Source of the DNA: Pseudomonas silesiensis
Lineage (GTDB): Bacteria > Pseudomonadota > Gammaproteobacteria > Pseudomonadales > Pseudomonadaceae
Length of the DNA: 64,000 bases
Reading direction: 5' to 3'
NCBI RefSeq assembly: GCF_001661075.1
Contig: NZ_CP014870.1
Location: 2,686,501-2,750,500 of the forward strand
The notes below the pieces were generated by a model, which ran no database searches, was not told the DNA's origin, and was given only the letters and a program-made list of their open reading frames with translations. Below, one piece after another: positions 29,325-38,321 of the stretch; within the stretch, counting starts at the first letter, position 1; each line of letters begins with the position of its first letter. A program made the translations under genes and the position numbers.

Positions 29325-29738
29325 TTACGCCGCGCCAGCCAACGCGAGGGTGGCCTGGGCATATTTCTGTCGCGAAATCAGCAGTTTTGCCGGCGCCTGG
29401 GCCAGTTGTTCGGCCAGGGCCAGGGCGGCGCTTTCGGCGACGCCGTAACAGCCGGTGCGTTCGAACGCGATGTCCGAACGGTGGCTGAGTTGCGGCTGAT
29501 AACCGGCCAGCTGTTCGCTGCTGAAATACATCAGCGGCAACTCGAGCTGCGCGGCCAGTTCGATGAGGCCCGGTTCTTCGCGCTTCAGGTCGATGCTGGC
29601 CAGGGCCTTGACCTGGCTCAGCTCGATTCGATGAGCCTGCAGCGCCTGGTCGAGCAATGCGCGCAACGTGCTGACGGGGCAGCCGCGCTGGCAGCCCAGG
29701 CCGACCACCAGGGTCGGCACGGCGCTGTTATCGGTCAT
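29325..29738 (-). CDS. cobE: CobE/CbiG C-terminal-type cobalamin biosynthesis protein
   Basis: 137 aa from ATG (MTDNSAVPTLVVGLGCQRGC), overlapping the end of cbtA by ATGA. The sequence is a single CbiG C-terminal domain: VVGLGCQRGCPVSTL at the start, then SIDLKREEPGL and TGCYGVAESAAL. In CbiG this region belongs to the ring-opening enzyme of the anaerobic route; in the aerobic pathway the stand-alone version CobE is required for cobalamin synthesis, but its reaction is unresolved. It lies between the cobalt transporter subunit cbtA and cobM in the same operon. Confidence 0.9.
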   Translation of the reverse strand: MTDNSAVPTLVVGLGCQRGCPVSTLRALLDQALQAHRIELSQVKALASIDLKREEPGLIELAAQLELPLMYFSSEQLAGYQPQLSHRSDIAFERTGCYGVAESAALALAEQLAQAPAKLLISRQKYAQATLALAGAA

Positions 29739-30442
29739 GCTTGGTATTGGCCATCGCTTTTGCGGCGGAACAACCAGGCGCTGACCAGGCCCAGGGCCAG
29801 CCAGAACGCGACGTTGGTCAGCTGCGAAGCGATTTTGAATTGCGACTCGAGGGCTTGCGGCGCGAGCATCGAGTGCACTTCCGGTTGTGGCGCGCCTATC
29901 ACGTGGGGAACAGCGAGGATCGCGGCGCCCAGGACCTTCATCAGCCAGTGACGGCTGAACACGATCAGGGCGATGCCGGCCGCGGTGGAGGCCGCTGTGC
30001 CGATCCACCAGATCTGTCGTTGCGCCAGATCGGCCGCGGCAGTTCCCGGCAGCTCAGGCGGCAGGCCCAGGGTCGGGGCGAGTACGAAGGTCGCATAGCC
30101 GGCCAGGCCCCAGAGCAGGCCCTGGGAGGTTTTGGTCGGGGCGCGCAAGGTATAGAGACCGGCCAGCATCAACGCGAAACCGACTGCGACCACCAGGTTG
30201 CCGCCGGTGGTCGACAGCACGCGCTGCCAGCCGTCTTCCGGCTCCCAGGCCTCGGCATCGTGGGTATGAGCGACGACAGCGCCCGCGGCGTGTTCATGGA
30301 TTTCAACAGCCGCCGGTTCGGATTTTTCGTAGGTCTCGGCCTGCATAATCAGCGGCGAAACCCAGAAACTTTGCAGCAGGGTCAGCAACAGGGCAGCCAG
30401 CAGCCCGCTGAAACCCGCGGTTTGCGCGATACGCTTGATCAT
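29735..30442 (-). CDS. cbtA: Cobalt transporter subunit CbtA
   Basis: 235 aa, integral inner-membrane protein with about five to six hydrophobic spans. A His-rich acidic loop (EIHEHAAGAVVAHTHDAEAW, about residues 48-67) follows the first span and is the probable metal-capture site. The WGLAGYATFVLAPTLGLPPELPG segment is the CbtA signature. Together with the adjacent one-span CbtB it is the predicted cobalt uptake system that replaces CbiMNQO in many Proteobacteria. It is translationally coupled to cobE by a 4-bp overlap and controlled by the riboswitch ahead of cbtB. Confidence 0.93.
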   Translation of the reverse strand: MIKRIAQTAGFSGLLAALLLTLLQSFWVSPLIMQAETYEKSEPAAVEIHEHAAGAVVAHTHDAEAWEPEDGWQRVLSTTGGNLVVAVGFALMLAGLYTLRAPTKTSQGLLWGLAGYATFVLAPTLGLPPELPGTAAADLAQRQIWWIGTAASTAAGIALIVFSRHWLMKVLGAAILAVPHVIGAPQPEVHSMLAPQALESQFKIASQLTNVAFWLALGLVSAWLFRRKSDGQYQA

Positions 30443-30453
30443 GTCGGCAGGTC

Positions 30454-30657
30454 TCAATGGCACGGGAAGGCGGCGCTGTGACGGGTATCGTGCGCGGCAT
30501 TGTGCACCGACTCGATGTGCGAGAAACCGGCGAAATACACAAGGCACGCGCCAAGGATCGACGCACACGCGGCGGCGGTCAGGCGTTGAGTCAGGGTCGT
30601 GGTGCTGCTGGCGGTGCTCTTGTCTGTGTTGCTGCCGGTGCTGCTGATGATCGACAT
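30454..30657 (-). CDS. cbtB: Cobalt transporter subunit CbtB
   Basis: 67 aa from ATG (MSIISSTGSNTDK): a Ser/Thr-rich N-terminus, one transmembrane helix (about residues 28-45, AACASILGACLVYFAGF) and a His-rich tail, HNAAHDTRHSAAFPCH, the classic CbtB metal-binding end. It is first in the operon, 11 bp ahead of cbtA. The upstream leader contains a cobalamin riboswitch read on the same strand, so uptake of cobalt should fall when cobalamin is plentiful. Confidence 0.94.
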   Translation of the reverse strand: MSIISSTGSNTDKSTASSTTTLTQRLTAAACASILGACLVYFAGFSHIESVHNAAHDTRHSAAFPCH

Positions 30658-30764: not shown

Positions 30765-30783
30765 GGTGAACGTAACGTTCACC
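30765..30783 (-). promoter_or_regulatory. Perfect palindrome just downstream of the cbtB riboswitch
   Basis: GGTGAACGTAACGTTCACC is a perfect 9-bp-arm palindrome with a 1-nt centre, immediately after the riboswitch aptamer and 108 bp before cbtB. It could be part of the expression platform or an operator; there is no T-run on the cbtB strand. Confidence 0.45.
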
Positions 30784-30986
30784 GGGTGTTGCGGGCCGGT
30801 CTCCGGGCTCACGAGGGGGCAGGCTGTCGCCTGGACCTGTAAGCGTCACCTTCCCATGCCGAACTGCAGGCACAGTGGATCTGACGCTTCGCTCGCTTAC
30901 CGTTGCGGGGGCAGCACCGGACTGACATGGCCTTGAGTAAAGCACATGATTCACCGGTTTCCCGTTTCACCCTGTGAAGGGCACCC
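30784..30986 (-). ncRNA. Cobalamin riboswitch upstream of cbtB
   Basis: Read on the minus strand, it shows the cobalamin aptamer landmarks in order: the 5' P1/P2 region (GGGTGCCCTTCACAGGGTG, GGGAAACCGGTG), the core GCTGCCCCCGCAACGGTAAG, the CCACTGTG segment, GGGAAGG and the closing GTGAGCCCGGAGACCGGCC. It lies in the leader of cbtB-cbtA-cobE-cobM and should switch the operon off when adenosylcobalamin or another cobalamin binds. Confidence 0.95.
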
Positions 30987-31064
30987 GTAACAAGGCGTGT
31001 AGGAGAGCATGGGCGGGGGTTGGGCGTCAATTGGCAGGGGTTCTCATTCGAGACCGAGGCGCTC

Positions 31065-31149: not shown

Positions 31150-31209
31150 GTCCTGACGGCTGACCACAAGACATTGACCCGCCCCCACACCATGCGTAGC
31201 CTTGCGCTT

Positions 31210-31395
31210 TCGAGGTTCTTCGGCATCTGCCGAAGCTAAGAAGGGAACGCGGTCGATGCCGCGGCTGCCCCCGCAACTGTGAACGGTGATGTTCGCTGCC
31301 ACGCCACTGCAAACCCTGATCCGTCAGGTTCGCGGGAAGGCGCAGCAAACGCCAGTCGAACGACTGGCACACCGTCAGCCAGGAGACCTGCCTCG
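31210..31395 (+). ncRNA. Cobalamin riboswitch upstream of cobW-cobN
   Basis: The plus strand shows GAGGTTCTTCGGCATC, AAGAAGGGAACGCGGT, the core GGCTGCCCCCGCAACTGTGA, GCCACTG, GGGAAGGCG and the closing GTCAGCCAGGAGACCTGCC. All diagnostic aptamer elements are present in order. It precedes cobW by about 115 nt and should repress the cobaltochelatase arm when cobalamin is available. Confidence 0.97.
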
Positions 31396-31511
31396 TTACA
31401 GATTCTCACTACAACCGGGCGGGGTGATCCGGTGGCGGAACTCTTGCGCGCGTGCACCTGCACGCTGCGATTGTCGTCCCGTATGCCCGCCACCTTGCCA
31501 AAGGGCATCCA

Positions 31512-32573
31512 ATGAAAACACTGGCCAAACTCCCCGTCACCATCGTTACCGGCTTCCTCGGCTCGGGCAAGACCACCTTGCTGCGGCACATGCTCGACAA
31601 CGCCCAGGGCCGTCGCATCGCGGTGATCGTCAACGAGTTTGGCGAACTGGGCATCGACGGTGAAATCCTCAAGCAGTGCACCATCGGCTGCACCGAGGAA
31701 GAAGCCAGCGGCCGTGTCTACGAACTGGCCAACGGCTGCCTGTGCTGCACCGTCCAGGAAGAATTCTTCCCGGTGATGCGCGAACTGGTGGCCCGTCGTG
31801 GCGACCTCGATCACATTCTCATCGAAACCTCGGGCCTGGCCCTGCCAAAACCACTGGTGCAAGCCTTCCAGTGGCCGGAAATCCGCAGCGCCTGCACCGT
31901 TGACGCGGTGATCACCGTAGTCGACAGCCCGGCCGTCGCTGCCGGCACCTTCGCCGCCTTCCCGGACCAGGTCGACGCCATGCGCAAACTCGACCCGAAC
32001 CTGGACCACGAATCGCCGCTGCACGAACTGTTCGCCGACCAACTGGCCAGCGCCGACCTGGTGATCCTCAACAAGGCCGATCTGATCAGCCCTGAAGATC
32101 TGGCCCGGGTGCGCCTGGAAGTCGCCGAAGAACTGCCGCCCGCGGTGAAAGTCATCGAAGCCAGCAGCGGCCGCCTGCCACTGGACGTACTGATCGGCCT
32201 CGGTGCCGGTTCCGAAGAACACATCGACAGCCGTCACAGCCATCATGATCATCACCACGAAGGCGAGGACGACCACGACCACGACGCCTTCGATTCGATT
32301 TCCATCGAACTGCCGCAAGCCGACGAAAGCCTGCTGCTGGATGCCTTGACCCAACTGGTGGTCCAGCACGGCATCCTGCGCGTCAAGGGTTTCGCCGCGA
32401 TCCCGGGCAAGCCGATGCGCCTGTTGATCCAGGGCGTGGGCACGCGCTTCGACAAGCATTTCGACCGTCAGTGGGGTGCCGATGAAGCTCGCACCACGCG
32501 CCTGGTGTTGATTGGCCAGGAACTGGACGCGGCACTGCTCGAAGCGCAATTGCGCGCCGCACTCAGCGTTTAA
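31512..32573 (+). CDS. cobW: CobW metallochaperone GTPase
   Basis: 353 aa from ATG (MKTLAKLPVTIVTGFLGSGK); upstream in-frame codons lie in the riboswitch leader. It is a G3E GTPase with Walker A G14-FLGSGKT-21, the metal-binding C76-x-C78-C79 (NGCLCC) and NKAD as the guanine motif. A long His/Asp loop (HSHHDHHHEGEDDHDHD, near 241-257) precedes the CobW C-terminal domain. In cobalamin producers CobW delivers cobalt to the aerobic cobaltochelatase. Accordingly it is followed 3 bp later by cobN and sits directly under the riboswitch. Confidence 0.96.
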   Translation: MKTLAKLPVTIVTGFLGSGKTTLLRHMLDNAQGRRIAVIVNEFGELGIDGEILKQCTIGCTEEEASGRVYELANGCLCCTVQEEFFPVMRELVARRGDLDHILIETSGLALPKPLVQAFQWPEIRSACTVDAVITVVDSPAVAAGTFAAFPDQVDAMRKLDPNLDHESPLHELFADQLASADLVILNKADLISPEDLARVRLEVAEELPPAVKVIEASSGRLPLDVLIGLGAGSEEHIDSRHSHHDHHHEGEDDHDHDAFDSISIELPQADESLLLDALTQLVVQHGILRVKGFAAIPGKPMRLLIQGVGTRFDKHFDRQWGADEARTTRLVLIGQELDAALLEAQLRAALSV

Positions 32574-32576
32574 GCC

Positions 32577-35500
32577 ATGCACCTGCTCAGGACCCAGCCC
32601 GGCGGTTTCGTGTCGGATGACAACATCGCCGACCTTGGACAGACCCCCGCCGAGCTGGTGATCCTGTGCAGCGGCGACTCCAGCCTGGCGCTGCTCGCCG
32701 AAGCGGCGCAGCAATTGCCGGACGATTACCCGAGCGTGCGCCTGGCCAATCCGATGCAGGTGCAGAATCACGCCTCGGTCGACCTGTATGTCGACGAAGT
32801 GCTGCGTCACGCCAAGGTCATCCTGATTTCACTGCACGGCGGCATTGCCTATTGGCGCTATGGCGTCGAGCAGTTGGTGGCGCTGTCCGAGCGCGGTGTG
32901 CAGCTGATCCTGGTGCCCGGCGATGATCGTCCGGATCCGGAACTCAGCGACCTGAGCACCGTGGATGCGCAAGACCGCGACCGGCTCTGGCATTACCTGC
33001 GTCAGGGCGGCATGGCCAACGCACTCGACCTGTTTCGCTGCCTCGCCAATCGTTGGCTGGATCGCGACTACGCCTGGGCCGAGCCGCAGACCTTGCCGCG
33101 CACCGCGATCTATCACCCACAAAAAAGCCCCGCCGCACTGCAGGATTGGCAAGCCGACTGGCAAGCCGGTCAACCGGTAGCGGCCGTGCTGTTTTACCGC
33201 TCGCACCTGCAGGCGGCGAACACCGCTTTCATCGACGTTTTCTGCCAGCGGTTGCAGGCGACGGGGCTTAACCCGCTGCCGATTGCCGTGGCCAGTTTGA
33301 AAGAGCCCGGCTGCCTGGCCGTGGTCGAAGACCTGCTGGATGAAGTCGCTGCCGAGGTGATTCTCAACACCACCGGTTTCGCCCAGTCGAGCCCCGAAGC
33401 GCCGCAGCTGCGACCGTTTCGCCGCAACATTCCGGTGATCCAGGCCATTTGCGCCCAAGACAACGAACCCGGTTGGCGCGCCAGCGAGCAGGGCCTCGGT
33501 CCGCGTGACCTGGCGATGCACATCGCGCTGCCGGAACTGGACGGGCGGATCATCAGCCGGCCGATCAGTTTCAAGGACCTGGCCTGGCGCAGTGAGCGCA
33601 GCCAGTCGGACGTGGTGTGTTATCGACCACAACCGGAACGCATGGATTTCGTCGCCGAACTGGCCCGACGCTGGATCGATCTGGGGCGGGTACCCAATGG
33701 CGAGAAACGCATTGCGCTGATCCTGGCCAACTACCCGACTCGCGACGGTCGCATCGGCAACGGGGTCGGTCTCGACACACCTGCCGCGGCGCTGAACATC
33801 CTGCGTGCGCTGCATAAAGAAGGTTATCCGCTACCGGCCGAACTGCCGGACAGCGGCACCGCGTTGATCCAGCAGTTGCTCGGCGGCGTCAGCAACGACC
33901 TCGACACCCTGGACCAGCGACCGTGCCATCAAAGCCTGGCACTGGACGACTACCGTCTGATGTTCGACGCGCTCCCCGAAACCAACCGTCAGGCCGTGCT
34001 GGAACGCTGGGGCAGCCCCGAAACCGATCCAATGTTCCGCGGCGGGCGGATGATGATTGCCGGGTTGCGTTTCGGCCTGACCTTCGTCGGCATTCAACCG
34101 GCCCGGGGTTATCAGGTCGATCCGAGCGCGGTCTACCATGACCCGGACCTGGTGCCGCCGCACGGCTATCTCGCGTTCTATTTCTGGCTGCGCAACACCT
34201 ATGGCGCCCACGGGGTGATTCATGTCGGCAAGCACGGCAACCTCGAATGGCTGCCGGGCAAGGGCGTCGGTCTGTCGGAGAATTGCTGGCCGGATGCACT
34301 GCTCGGCCCACTGCCGAACATCTATCCGTTTATCGTCAACGATCCGGGCGAGGGCGCCCAGGCCAAGCGTCGTACCCAGGCGGTGATCATCGATCACCTG
34401 ATGCCACCGCTGACCCGCGCAGAAACCTACGGGCCGCTGCGCAACCTCGAGCTGCTGGCCGACGAATATTACGACGCGCAATTGCTCGATCCGCGGCGCG
34501 CCCGGGAGTTGCAGCGGGACATTCTGCAACTGGTACGCGACAGCCACATCGACCACGAACTGCAACTGGATGAACACCTCGACAGCGATGCCGATGCGGC
34601 GATCTGGCTGCCGCGCCTGGACACCTATTTGTGTGACTTGAAAGAGTCGCAAATCCGCGATGGCCTGCACATCTTCGGCGAGTCGCCGACCGGGCGTCTG
34701 CGTATCGATACCTTGCTGGCCCTGCTGCGAATTCCTCGTGGCGATGGGCGAGGGGCGCAATCGAGTGTGTTGCGGGCCTTGGCCAAGGCCTTCGAACTGG
34801 GTTTCGATCCGCTGGATTGTGCGCTGGCGGAACCCTGGACCGGGCCCCGTCCGATTGAACTGCAATCCCTCACCGATGAAGTCTGGCGCACGGCGGGCGA
34901 CACCCGCGAACGCCTGGAATTGTTCGCCGCTCAACTGATCTCGCAGACAGTAAATCCTCCTCAAGCCAACCCCGAACCCTGTGGGAGCGGGCTTGCTCGC
35001 GAAAGCGGTGTATCAGGCAAATCAATGTCGACTGAACTCTGTGGGAGCGAGCTTGCTCGCGATAGCGGTGTGTCAGGTAAAGCAATGTCGACTGACACTC
35101 CGCTATCGCGAGCAAGCTCGCTCCCACAGGGTCCAGGTTGGTCTGAGGTCAGCGCCATCATCGACAATCTGCGCGAAGTCGTCGCGCCGCGCCTGGATGC
35201 CTGCGGCCCGGCGGAAATGCGCGGATTGCTCGATGCCTTGAGCGGTCGTTTCGTCATGGCCGGGCCCAGCGGTGCACCCAGCCGCGGGCGCCTGGACGTG
35301 CTGCCGACCGGGCGCAACTTCTATTCGGTGGACGTGCGCAACCTGCCTACTACCACCGCCTGGCGCATCGGTTTCCAGTCGGCGAACCTGATACTGGAAC
35401 GACATCTGCAGGATCACGGCGACCACCTGCGCCAGCTCGGCCTGTCGGTCTGGGGTACCGCGACCATGCGCACCGGTGGCGACGACATCGCCCAGGCCAT

Positions 35501-36503
35501 GGCGCTGATGGGCGTGCGCCCGGTCTGGGCCACCGGCAGCCAGCGGGTCGACGATTTCGAAATTTTGCCACTTGGCCTGCTCGACCGGCCGCGGGTGGAC
35601 GTGACCCTGCGCGTGTCCGGCTTCTTCCGGGATGCCTTCGCCAACCTGATCCGCCTGTTCGACGCGGCCGTGCAAGCGGTTGCCGCCCTCGACGAGCCGG
35701 ACGACCTCAACCCGTTGGCCGCCAAGGTCCGCGCCGAGCGTGAAACGCTACTTCGATCAGGTCTGGATGAAGAGTCGGCTCGCCGTCAGGCCGGTTGGCG
35801 CATCTTTGGTGCCAAACCCGGTGCATACGGCGCGGGCGTGCAAGGCGCGATCGACGGTCGGCTGTGGCAAAGCCGCGACGACCTGGCCGAGGTTTACCTG
35901 AATTGGGGCGGTTACGCCTACGGCGGTTCCGACGAAGGCACCGCCGCCCGAGAACAGTTCGCCCAGCGCTTGAGCCAGGTGCAAGCAGTGCTGCAAAACC
36001 AGGACAACCGCGAGCACGACTTGCTCGATTCCAACGACTATTACCAATTCCAGGGCGGCATGCTCGCCGCCGTGGAAAGCCTTAGCGGCGAAGCGGCGGC
36101 CAGTTACCATGGCGATCACAGCCAGCCGGACCTGCCGAAGATCCGCACCTTGAAAGAAGAATTGAACCGGGTAATCCGCTCCCGGGCGGCCAACCCCAAG
36201 TGGATCGACGGCGTGAAGCGTCACGGCTATAAAGGCGCGTTCGAACTGGCGGCTACGGTCGACAATCTGTTTGCTTTCGACGCGACGACGCAGTTGATTG
36301 ACGATCACCAGTACGCATTGCTGGCGGACGCTTATCTGCTGGACCCGGCGACCCGGGATTTTGTTCGCGAGCACAATCCCCATGCACTGCGCGACATGAC
36401 CGAGCGCATGCTCGAAGCGCAGCAACGGGGCATGTGGCAGGAGCCGGGCGAGTATCGCGAGGCGCTGGAGAATTTGTTGCTGGACATAGAAGAAGATAGC
36501 TAA
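32577..36503 (+). CDS. cobN: Aerobic cobaltochelatase large subunit CobN, with REP sequences inside the frame
   Basis: 1308 aa, starting 3 bp after cobW. CobN inserts Co2+ into hydrogenobyrinic acid a,c-diamide with ATPase partners, which here are the downstream chlI/chlD-type genes. Family motifs include VLILANYPTRDGRIGNGVGLDT-like residues near 380, YGAHGVIHVGKHGNLEWLPG near 545 and TATMRTGGDDIAQ near 960. Residues about 801-851 are odd: they are translated from two direct and one inverted REP palindromes (CGSGLARESGVSGKS and CGSELARDSGVSGKA, then TPLSRASSLPQG) in frame, adding about 50 residues in what looks like a surface linker. The frame stays open through the array, so the protein is probably functional. 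Confidence 0.96.
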   Translation: MHLLRTQPGGFVSDDNIADLGQTPAELVILCSGDSSLALLAEAAQQLPDDYPSVRLANPMQVQNHASVDLYVDEVLRHAKVILISLHGGIAYWRYGVEQLVALSERGVQLILVPGDDRPDPELSDLSTVDAQDRDRLWHYLRQGGMANALDLFRCLANRWLDRDYAWAEPQTLPRTAIYHPQKSPAALQDWQADWQAGQPVAAVLFYRSHLQAANTAFIDVFCQRLQATGLNPLPIAVASLKEPGCLAVVEDLLDEVAAEVILNTTGFAQSSPEAPQLRPFRRNIPVIQAICAQDNEPGWRASEQGLGPRDLAMHIALPELDGRIISRPISFKDLAWRSERSQSDVVCYRPQPERMDFVAELARRWIDLGRVPNGEKRIALILANYPTRDGRIGNGVGLDTPAAALNILRALHKEGYPLPAELPDSGTALIQQLLGGVSNDLDTLDQRPCHQSLALDDYRLMFDALPETNRQAVLERWGSPETDPMFRGGRMMIAGLRFGLTFVGIQPARGYQVDPSAVYHDPDLVPPHGYLAFYFWLRNTYGAHGVIHVGKHGNLEWLPGKGVGLSENCWPDALLGPLPNIYPFIVNDPGEGAQAKRRTQAVIIDHLMPPLTRAETYGPLRNLELLADEYYDAQLLDPRRARELQRDILQLVRDSHIDHELQLDEHLDSDADAAIWLPRLDTYLCDLKESQIRDGLHIFGESPTGRLRIDTLLALLRIPRGDGRGAQSSVLRALAKAFELGFDPLDCALAEPWTGPRPIELQSLTDEVWRTAGDTRERLELFAAQLISQTVNPPQANPEPCGSGLARESGVSGKSMSTELCGSELARDSGVSGKAMSTDTPLSRASSLPQGPGWSEVSAIIDNLREVVAPRLDACGPAEMRGLLDALSGRFVMAGPSGAPSRGRLDVLPTGRNFYSVDVRNLPTTTAWRIGFQSANLILERHLQDHGDHLRQLGLSVWGTATMRTGGDDIAQAMALMGVRPVWATGSQRVDDFEILPLGLLDRPRVDVTLRVSGFFRDAFANLIRLFDAAVQAVAALDEPDDLNPLAAKVRAERETLLRSGLDEESARRQAGWRIFGAKPGAYGAGVQGAIDGRLWQSRDDLAEVYLNWGGYAYGGSDEGTAAREQFAQRLSQVQAVLQNQDNREHDLLDSNDYYQFQGGMLAAVESLSGEAAASYHGDHSQPDLPKIRTLKEELNRVIRSRAANPKWIDGVKRHGYKGAFELAATVDNLFAFDATTQLIDDHQYALLADAYLLDPATRDFVREHNPHALRDMTERMLEAQQRGMWQEPGEYREALENLLLDIEEDS
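34978..35131. repeat. REP array inside the cobN coding sequence
   Basis: Two direct REP units with a 60-bp period start at 34978 and 35038, each carrying TGTGGGAGCG-GCTTGCTCGCG. An inverted unit (CGCTATCGCGAGCAAGCTCG...CCCACAGGG) lies at about 35101-35131. The 60-bp period equals 20 codons, so the reading frame is kept. Confidence 0.95.
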
Positions 36504-36515
36504 TGCGCCGCAAAA

Positions 36516-36611
36516 CCCTGTGGGAGCGAGCTTGCTCGCGATAGCGGTGGATCATTCAATATTAATTTTGGCTGACACACCGCCATCGCGAGCAAGCTCG
36601 CTCCCACAGGG
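36516..36611. repeat. REP pair between cobN and chlI
   Basis: CCCTGTGGGAGCGAGCTTGC...GCGATAGCGG at 36516-36547 faces CCGCCATCGCGAGCAAGCTC...CACAGGG at 36580-36611. It is a near-perfect REP doublet filling most of the 154-bp gap between the chelatase genes, and could form a very stable hairpin in the shared mRNA. Confidence 0.92.
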
Positions 36612-36657: not shown

Positions 36658-37656
36658 ATGACCGACACCCCGCATTTCCCCCTCTCCGCCGTGGTCGGCG
36701 CCGACGACTTGAAACTCGCCCTCTACCTCACCGCCATTGACCCGAAAATCGGCGGTGTGCTGATCGAAGGCCCGCGCGGCATGGCCAAATCAACCCTGGC
36801 CCGAGGCCTGGCGGACCTGCTCGCCAGCGGCCAATTCGTCACCTTGCCCCTGGGGGCTACCGAAGAACGACTGGTCGGTACCCTCGATCTTGACGCCGCG
36901 CTGAGCGAAGGTCGCGCGCAATTCTCCCCTGGCGTGCTGGCCAAGGCGGACGGCGGCGTGCTGTATGTCGATGAGGTCAACCTGCTGCCCGATCATCTGG
37001 TGGATCTGCTGCTCGACGTCGCCGCCAGCGGCACCAACCTGATCGAACGCGATGGCATTTCCCATCGGCATTCGGCGAAGTTCGTGCTGATCGGCACCAT
37101 GAACCCGGAGGAGGGCGAGCTGCGGCCGCAATTGCTCGACCGCTTTGGTTTGAACGTCGCCCTCAGCGGTCACACAGTGCCGGCTGAACGCGGCCAGATC
37201 ATTCGCCGGCGACTGGATTTCGACAGCGATCCGCAACTCTTTTGCGTCGAGTGGGAAAGCCGGCAGCAGTCACTGCGTGAACGTTGTCAGACAGCGCGCA
37301 GCACACTGGCGAGCATCCCCCTCGACGATCAGGCACTGGCGCAGATTACCGAGCGTTGTTTTGCCGCCGGTGTCGATGGCCTGCGCGCCGATCTGGTGTG
37401 GTTACGCGCGGCCCGGGCCCACGCTGCCTGGCGCGGTGCGAGTGCCATCGCCGAGGAAGATATCGACGCCGTCGCCGAGTTCGCCCTGCGCCACCGCCGT
37501 CGCGAACAGGCGCCACCTGCGCCGCAACACAATCAACCCCAGGCTGGCCAGCATGCCAACCCTGGGGAAAGCCAGGGCCAATGGGGCGAAATGCCCGCCC
37601 AGGCCTTGCCGGTCGGCGCCCGACGAGAAGTGCCGAGCTGGCCAAAAAAGCCCTAG
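36658..37656 (+). CDS. ChlI-like chelatase AAA+ ATPase (zero-frame product)
   Basis: 332 aa. AAA+ core with Walker A GPRGMAKS (residues 38-45), Walker B GGVLYVDEVN (about 99-108), sensor segment GTMNPEEGELRPQLLDRFGL and an all-helical lid to about 290. A Pro/Gln/Asn linker follows (APPAPQHNQPQAGQHANPG), then REVPSWPKKP and a stop. It is the motor subunit of a Mg- or cobaltochelatase and by context should act with CobN. The last codons before the stop are CCA AAA AAG CCC TAG, a slippery site. In the -1 frame translation continues into the VWA domain, so this protein is probably the short product of a frameshifting gene. Confidence 0.92.
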   Translation: MTDTPHFPLSAVVGADDLKLALYLTAIDPKIGGVLIEGPRGMAKSTLARGLADLLASGQFVTLPLGATEERLVGTLDLDAALSEGRAQFSPGVLAKADGGVLYVDEVNLLPDHLVDLLLDVAASGTNLIERDGISHRHSAKFVLIGTMNPEEGELRPQLLDRFGLNVALSGHTVPAERGQIIRRRLDFDSDPQLFCVEWESRQQSLRERCQTARSTLASIPLDDQALAQITERCFAAGVDGLRADLVWLRAARAHAAWRGASAIAEEDIDAVAEFALRHRRREQAPPAPQHNQPQAGQHANPGESQGQWGEMPAQALPVGARREVPSWPKKP

Positions 37657-38321
37657 GCATTCGCCCTCGATCTGACGCGGGGGCGAATGCCAGGCCCCGC
37701 GCCGGACGGTTGGACAATGGCAGGCAAGGCAAGCGTCACGCCGCGCGCAACGGCTCGATCAATTGGCCCGGCACGTTGCTGGGTGGCCGCCCCCGGCAGC
37801 GCGACGATGTGCTGTTTCACCTGCGCACCCGTTCCCCCCATGAACTGTGGCTGGTGATCGTCGATGCCTCGGCTTCGACTCGGCGTCATCAGGCGTTGAG
37901 CGATGCGAAGGGGCTGTTGGCACAATTGTTCGATGACGCCTACCGCCAGCGCGCGCGCCTGGCCTTGCTGACCGCCAGCGGTCATGTGCCGAAATGGCAG
38001 GTGCAGGGGTTGAAGGCGTCCGCCGGTTTGCGTACCTGGCTGGATGGCCTCGGAGCCGGCGGCGGCACGCCCTTGCTGGCAGCGCTGGGTGAGGCGGGAC
38101 ACTGGTTGGCCGCTCGTCGGAAGCGTTTCCCGGCGGAGCGACAGCGACTGTTGCTGGTGACCGATGGCCGATTGAAAGACTTCACGATGTTGCCGACCCT
38201 TGATTGTCCGGGGCTGTTGATTGACATTGAGCGAGGGCCGATTCGGCTGGGGCGGGCCAAGGTGTTGGCGAGCGGGTTGGGTGCAGATTATCGGCATATC
38301 GACGAGCTGATTCCAGGCTGA
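37581..38321 (+). CDS. ChlD-type VWA domain, probably expressed by -1 frameshifting from chlI
   Basis: The frame downstream of chlI encodes a von Willebrand A domain with the MIDAS motif DASAS (VIVDASASTRRHQ) and the later GTPLL and TDGRL segments of ChlD/BchD/CobT-like chelatase subunits. The earliest plausible own start is an ATG at 37581, giving 246 aa, but it has no convincing ribosome site and begins inside chlI. A better reading is a -1 slip at 37644-37650: 331 zero-frame residues joined to 223 residues from 37650, a 554-aa ChlI-ChlD protein with AAA+, proline-rich linker and VWA domains, the normal ChlD architecture. Confidence 0.88.
   Translation: MGRNARPGLAGRRPTRSAELAKKALGIRPRSDAGANARPRAGRLDNGRQGKRHAARNGSINWPGTLLGGRPRQRDDVLFHLRTRSPHELWLVIVDASASTRRHQALSDAKGLLAQLFDDAYRQRARLALLTASGHVPKWQVQGLKASAGLRTWLDGLGAGGGTPLLAALGEAGHWLAARRKRFPAERQRLLLVTDGRLKDFTMLPTLDCPGLLIDIERGPIRLGRAKVLASGLGADYRHIDELIPG
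37644..37691 (+). promoter_or_regulatory. -1 programmed ribosomal frameshift signal (slippery heptamer plus hairpin)
   Basis: The heptamer A AAA AAG (37644-37650) lies in the correct zero-frame phase of chlI. A 5-nt spacer CCCTA overlaps the TAG stop, then a perfect 11-bp stem follows: GGCATTCGCCC (37656-37666) with GGGCGAATGCC (37681-37691), 14-nt loop. These are the elements of a dnaX-like -1 site, and the -1 frame is the one encoding the VWA domain. Confidence 0.9.

Follow-up and report, generated by a model that had tools for sequence, protein, structure and literature searches.

The locus studied here raises the question of how one gene can supply parts of a cobalt chelatase when its ATPase part ends in one reading frame and its VWA domain is encoded in another. 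The window (the whole stretch of DNA analysed, 64,000 nucleotides of the Pseudomonas silesiensis genome, itself one contig of 6.82 Mb) carries this gene, chlI/D, next to cobN. From sequence comparison we consider it highly probable that it is a frameshifting chlD gene (fs-chlD) belonging to a cobW-cobN-chlI/D group led by a riboswitch, where a -1 slip would yield a ChlI-like and a ChlD-like product. The anatomy of the locus, its conservation, a switch of coding frame, a conserved hairpin and the lack of other clear subunit genes were all observed directly and are described below.

Anatomy of the locus

The features, in window coordinates, are as follows.

31196-31409, + strand: cobalamin riboswitch (Rfam RF00174) leading cobW-cobN-chlI/D; 102.8 bits against a gathering score of 31.5
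31452-32573, + strand: cobW (ORF extent as listed); TIGR02475 over cut-off
32577-36503, + strand: cobN, cobaltochelatase large subunit; PF02514 and TIGR02257 over cut-off
36658-37656, + strand: 0-frame ORF, stop included, for a 332-aa ChlI-like AAA+ ATPase; ORF reading and profile matches
37581-37583, + strand: -1-frame ATG 5' of the slip site, across 0-frame CAA TGG, a possible separate start; not conserved
37644-37650, + strand: slippery heptamer A_AAA_AAG, in phase for a -1 slip
37650-38321, + strand: -1-frame extension with the VWA/MIDAS domain and stop; 223 codons (37650-38318)
37654-37656, + strand: 0-frame stop TAG, 3 nt 3' of the heptamer; sequence reading
37656-37669, + strand: hairpin 5' arm, with the perfect 11-bp core at 37656-37666; complementarity, RNAfold and conservation
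37678-37691, + strand: hairpin 3' arm, core 37681-37691; complementarity, RNAfold and conservation

The 0 frame reads TGG CCA AAA AAG CCC TAG at its end. Matches to Pfam AAA_lid_2, AAA_5 and Mg_chelatase lie 5' of the shift and a VWA_2 match lies 3' of it, all above cut-offs; the nearest solved chains to the 332-aa ATPase are ChlI/BchI. The fusion product would consist of residues 1-331 followed by the 223 -1-frame codons (554 aa). A preliminary description of this DNA had located the end of the ChlI-type frame and the in-phase heptamer correctly to the base, and we also found its perfect 11-bp stem 5 nt after the heptamer (spacer 37651-37655), its VWA domain in the -1 frame and its arithmetic for the products of 332 and 554 aa to be right.

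Several other elements surround these genes. A second cobalamin riboswitch (30777-31003, - strand) stands back to back with the first and precedes a leftward 277-aa ORF (29735-30568). Three REP-like palindromes, two on the + and one on the - strand, lie within the cobN frame at 34981-35127; the frame stays unbroken, and the insert of about 55 residues is absent from the cobN matches of genomes G176 and G272. Between cobN and chlI/D, at 36520-36607, there is an inverted-order pair of the same repeats. The window holds 14 of them, where none is expected by chance.

Sequences compared

In the genus sample, a ChlI match at E 1e-30 was present in 280 of 298 genomes. The junction region was taken from 167 of these 280 (30 + 130 + 7), and in three of the 167 (G076, G174, G283) the contig ends before the junction. 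Relatives with species names are the best 80 among the matches listed. We examined 261 loci. Of these, 10 gave no ChlI match and in 8 the contig or stretch ended before any stop was reached, which left 243 to be read. The plain form, namely A_AAA_AAG with the stop 3 nt on and VWA in the -1 frame, was observed in 221 of the 243.

The remaining 22 loci are varied. L002 is a paralogue, L099 ends ahead of the VWA domain, and in L054 the stop is immediately 3' of the heptamer. Four loci of Caballeronia and Cupriavidus (L107, L110, L112, L115) carry A_AAA_AAA in the heptamer position and encode VWA in the -1 frame. L124 is the stop-less variant described below. A single long frame was found in nine (L102, L103, L105, L106, L108, L109, L111, L113, L114), seven of them with a VWA match, L109 being masked by N and L111 unmatched. 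Finally, the frames are broken or shifted in L219, L220, L228, L246 and L249; the heptamer and hairpin are retained in the last three despite the disturbed frames, whereas L219 has five A following an insertion and L220 a G within the A run.

Usable junctions therefore numbered 227 (the 221, L054, L124 and the four A_AAA_AAA loci). Removal of identical or short ones left 215 distinct junctions, among them 201 with a ChlI identity of at least 70%, window included. These counts are of sequences, not of events, and some loci belong to one species.

The slip site is invariant and tied to the shift

AAAAAAG is present in 201 of the 201 close junctions; across the rest of the ChlI frame, AAA is the Lys codon in 305 of 874 cases. 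The 0-frame stop lies 3 nt from the heptamer in 199 junctions, 0 nt in one and 21 nt in one, and is variously TAG (114), TGA (84) or TAA (3). In 69 of the 201 junctions no more than 30 nt separate the last -1 stop from the 0-frame stop, and the shift is thus tied to the site. The exception at 21 nt is L124 (genome G006), in which CAG replaces the stop while the heptamer and hairpin are kept; the next stop falls within the hairpin and would give a short product of 341 aa. Retention of the signal without the stop argues against a role of termination.

A Shine-Dalgarno-like stimulator 5' of the heptamer was rejected as a candidate, none being conserved among the 201 junctions: the best mean duplex energy was -4.5 kcal/mol (8-mer at -19), and values below -4.4 were obtained in 33% of the junctions.

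The coding constraint also changes frame at this point. Mean column entropies by codon position over 167 rows were 0.49, 0.46 and 1.18 for the 0 frame in the 30 nt upstream, and 0.95, 0.93 and 1.60 for the -1 frame at 48-80 nt downstream, so that variation at third positions follows the 0 frame before the slip site and the -1 frame after it. No -1 stop occurs within 90 nt in the 167 rows. Immediately past the site, the -1-frame residues KKALGIRPR are conserved at 69-100%.

A helix is conserved at ribosomal spacing

In the window, GGCATTCGCCC (37656-37666) and GGGCGAATGCC (37681-37691) pair without a mismatch, and RNAfold predicts 14 bp closed by an 8-nt loop. The minimum free energy of the 77-nt stretch is -37.4 kcal/mol (z -2.9; 2 of 200 shuffles equal or better). 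An uninterrupted 14-bp helix at that spacing was found at none of the control positions of the window's gene. RNAfold also proposed an outer extension of the stem in the window; it is missing from the family consensus and was dropped.

Over the family, energy by itself discriminated weakly: in 67 loci, z for 48-nt segments averaged -2.4 and ranged from -4.6 to 0, and with branched folds allowed only 13 of 65 loci had a site better than every one of the 20 controls. Hence uninterrupted helix length was taken as the measure. By this measure, chosen after the weak energy outcome was known, a helix of at least 8 bp beginning 4-8 nt past the heptamer occurs in 189 of the 215 distinct junctions versus 5.9% of 107,917 control positions, and one of at least 10 bp at that place in 123 of 215 versus 0.9% of controls. 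The helix is shorter than 7 bp in 19 of the 215; weak helices are exemplified by L104 (4 bp) and L215 (6 bp).

The preliminary description had proposed aligning the site for compensatory changes. In alignment A1 (60 gapless junctions), 98.7% of cells are paired versus 33-54% when the arms are slid, and both-sided changes occur in three pairs, chiefly columns 24/49 (UA 36, UG 12, CG 12). None of 500 shuffles equalled A1 in cells paired, cells changed on both sides or covariation score; 31 of 500 did so for the number of both-sided pairs and for further pair types. In 167 rows selected because they keep 9 or more of the 11 pairs in the A1 register, the column 24/49 pair is UA in 54, UG in 25, CG in 88 and never CA, and it changed at least 19 times on the ChlI tree. 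A test on independent pairs was not significant (13 pairs, averaging 2.9 in the same direction and 0 in the opposite one; p about 0.25). The place of the hairpin, a helix at ribosomal spacing, is the stronger argument compared to covariation.

Other lineages have, at this position, helices whose sequences are unrelated: CCATCGAAGGCG/CGCCTTCGATGG in a Caballeronia, AGCCACCGG/CCGGTGGCT in Cupriavidus, and GCAGTGGG/CCCACTGC and GCCCCGGC/GCCGGGGC in two further class members. The available text of a 2016 review (PMC5009743) prints the P. protegens stem-loop and suggests a triplex. We rejected the triplex as a general feature: pyrimidines make up 6-8 of 10 positions of the 5' arm in all but one of the 201 close junctions (200), but the asymmetry of the arms is not general (2 of 8 pyrimidines in L282 and 2 of 7 in L284).

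Other explanations of the frame break

It is very unlikely that chlI/D represents two overlapping genes, with the VWA protein made from an internal start or by reinitiation past the ChlI stop. The window's -1 frame is open upstream too (345-aa ORF starting at 37284) and contains an ATG (37581) and a TTG (37710); among the 201 close junctions, an open NTG is found at -63, the position of this ATG, in 74, and some NTG between -30 and +60 in 43. However, in 93 of the 201 the open -1 frame lacks any ATG, GTG or TTG as far as +60, and 100 have a -1 stop downstream of -63. The remark in the preliminary description that the VWA frame has no good start needs this qualification, as two starts exist in the window; neither is conserved, and the conserved ATG that would speak for a separate VWA gene was looked for and not found. 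Under two overlapping genes the invariance of the heptamer would be without reason, and both the conservation of KKALGIRPR right past the site and the retention of the site in the stop-less L124 speak against them.

Transcriptional slippage on the A run, giving a second mRNA that encodes the fusion, is still more improbable. Short A runs are not known to slip much in transcription. The run here is only six A, fixed as AAAAAAG in all 201 close junctions, and a hairpin at ribosomal spacing is retained. On the other side, longer A runs exist in the family (ten A in L280), and the cassettes tested in the available part of PMC3711429 had 11, 9 and 7 A. The least likely reading is a pseudogene or a sequencing error breaking one chlD gene. 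Extra indels or an altered run are indeed seen in L219, L220, L228, L246 and L249; however, throughout the genus and in other families the break falls at the same base, and the sequence on either side of it is under coding constraint; since the frame break is conserved this reading is already refuted. A programmed -1 frameshift, as the preliminary description had read the locus, is supported by the conserved signal elements, the coding constraint in the -1 frame, the unconserved independent initiation and the lack of another clear small or medium subunit gene.

How the two products would be made

Very probably the signal causes a fraction of the ribosomes to move back by one base, giving a short and a long enzyme part from one gene. 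Ribosomes staying in frame would read AAA AAG CCC TAG and make the 332-aa ChlI-like ATPase. The GC-rich hairpin would stall a share of the ribosomes while A_AAA_AAG occupies their P and A sites; in these ribosomes, both tRNA-Lys would slip in tandem by -1 and reading would go on in the -1 frame, to produce the 554-aa ATPase-VWA (ChlD-like) protein, whose ATPase part is identical to the short product. The short and long proteins would then form an ATPase complex driving cobalt insertion by CobN. For P. silesiensis, we infer the slip itself, its rate, the assembly of the products and their cobalt function, cobalt chelation with CobN being suggested by the neighbours and the riboswitch. It is plausible that both ATPase partners of CobN are supplied in a fixed ratio.

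Distribution of the signal and of the subunit genes

Model R1, built from A1, found a match in 277 of 296 genus genomes at E 0.1; this count includes weak matches in G014, G060, G259 and G272, which have no ChlI match, and misses three divergent heptamer-bearing loci (G027, G148, G287). A second gene with the same signal was sought and rejected: in the window's own genome R1 returned the site, its reverse complement and two weak matches (E 0.049 and 0.71), the second matches of many genomes being examined in G000 only. In the class sample, a ChlI match at E 1e-50 was present in 21 of 369 genomes, own genome included. Of 21 other class loci, five (L280, L282, L284, L285, L287) combine A_AAA_AAR 3 nt before the stop with a VWA domain in the -1 frame. 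Ten others are in-frame and six end as a stand-alone ChlI; five of these six have the VWA at a distance of more than 1 kb downstream.

CobT has no match in the own genome and CobS none over cut-off, the best sub-threshold match being 6.1e-8; the genome is therefore not of the CobNST type, defined by CobS and CobT over the family cut-offs. The next ChlI match there has 30% identity (E 1.7e-7). As expected of an fs-chlD gene, cobN adjoins and no separate clear small-subunit gene is present.

Eight of the nine named in-frame genomes were searched, and each gave a single ChlI match at E 1e-10; five in-frame genomes (G299, G300, G301, G303, G304) also gave CobS matches that were weak at most. Loci L103, L105, L106, L111 and L113 combine an in-frame ChlD with a single ChlI match and CobS matches that are weak at most. 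In-frame genomes without CobS may use one chain for both roles. Three Caballeronia genomes (G306-G308), on the other hand, have both the frameshift signal and a strong CobS match, so that the signal and the absence of CobS do not always go together. As the in-frame relatives have no short product as far as seen, and these three Caballeronia have a strong CobS match, the need for a short ChlI is not general.

CobN itself varies. In L253 (G176:C1:2217245-2223700), CobN and ChlI form one open frame of 1582 aa (LENLLLIK-VTDIPHFPLS), the heptamer and hairpin are kept, and a GTG at the join offers a possible separate start for ChlI. A remote CobN-like protein, 38-41% identical over its best-matching stretch and encoded in open frames of 1408-1491 aa, is present in six genus genomes without chlI/D. 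The CobN-like protein of L254 and L255 has a hydrophobic N-terminus and a receptor-like gene near it, as judged by eye.

Comparison with known systems

In E. coli, dnaX carries A_AAA_AAG with a downstream stem and gives two products, gamma and tau of DNA polymerase III, with a common N-terminal ATPase. The slip in E. coli dnaX yields the shorter product; in chlI/D it would yield the longer one. The two systems are alike in the heptamer, the downstream stem and the two products sharing an N-terminal ATPase, but differ in gene and complex. According to the available part of PMC3711429, some dnaX genes require recoding for the longer product.

The remark in the preliminary description that frameshifting in chlD-type genes had been reported proved right, as judged from the accessible portions of three sources. 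PMC3711429 (NAR 2013) has a cluster of 23 genes with -1 frameshifts from six genera including Pseudomonas, and three cassettes with 11, 9 and 7 A that shift 63, 40 and 10% in E. coli; these A runs differ from the A6G of the window. PMC5009743 describes purifying selection on A_AAA_AAR in Pseudomonas, Delftia, Methanocaldococcus and Methanococcus. PMC9227772 (2022) describes fs-chlD as giving small and medium subunits and includes P. aeruginosa in a table (stage 8). As far as these portions go, the window's gene shares with fs-chlD the gene, the A_AAA_AAR site, the -1 direction, the downstream stem-loop and the predicted short and long products, and differs only in coming from another genome of the group. 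A ChlI-type AAA+ domain in the 0 frame, VWA in the -1 frame and an in-phase A_AAA_AAR just before the 0-frame stop were all found, followed by a structure that is conserved as a helix. The available text of PMC5009743 calls the sequence of the structure not strongly conserved, whereas here conservation as a helix was tested over 215 junctions.

The in-frame cobaltochelatase ChlD (TIGR02442 type) is a homologous ATPase-linker-VWA protein, but it is encoded in one frame throughout and has no A_AAA_AAG-type site (nine loci, L109 being N-masked over much of its second half); the window's gene, with its 0-frame stop at 37654-37656, is not of this type. A reversed, dnaX-like signal in the in-frame ChlD was also considered and rejected: in the same nine loci only stray, non-recurring heptamers were present.

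Discussion

The window's gene is a further member of the already described fs-chlD system. Relative to the accessible portions of PMC3711429, PMC5009743 and PMC9227772, the present analysis adds the profile of the frame switch, the variant that lacks the stop, the joined frame of CobN and ChlI, and a test of the hairpin by comparison of homologous junctions. We tentatively suggest, as a doubtful but possible extension, that the hairpin holds the ChlI:ChlD ratio at a tuned value, lineages swapping the sequence of the stem wholesale while holding the heptamer, stop and spacing, and that the single gene of G176 (L253) could make CobN-ChlI and CobN-ChlI-VWA chains, and would then be a one-gene chelatase.

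The slip would let one gene supply two parts of a B12 enzyme, and it would explain why annotation splits this gene in two. With the 201 close junctions, the unrelated hairpins, the stop-less variant and the in-frame relatives, selection on the stem and the need for the short product become testable.
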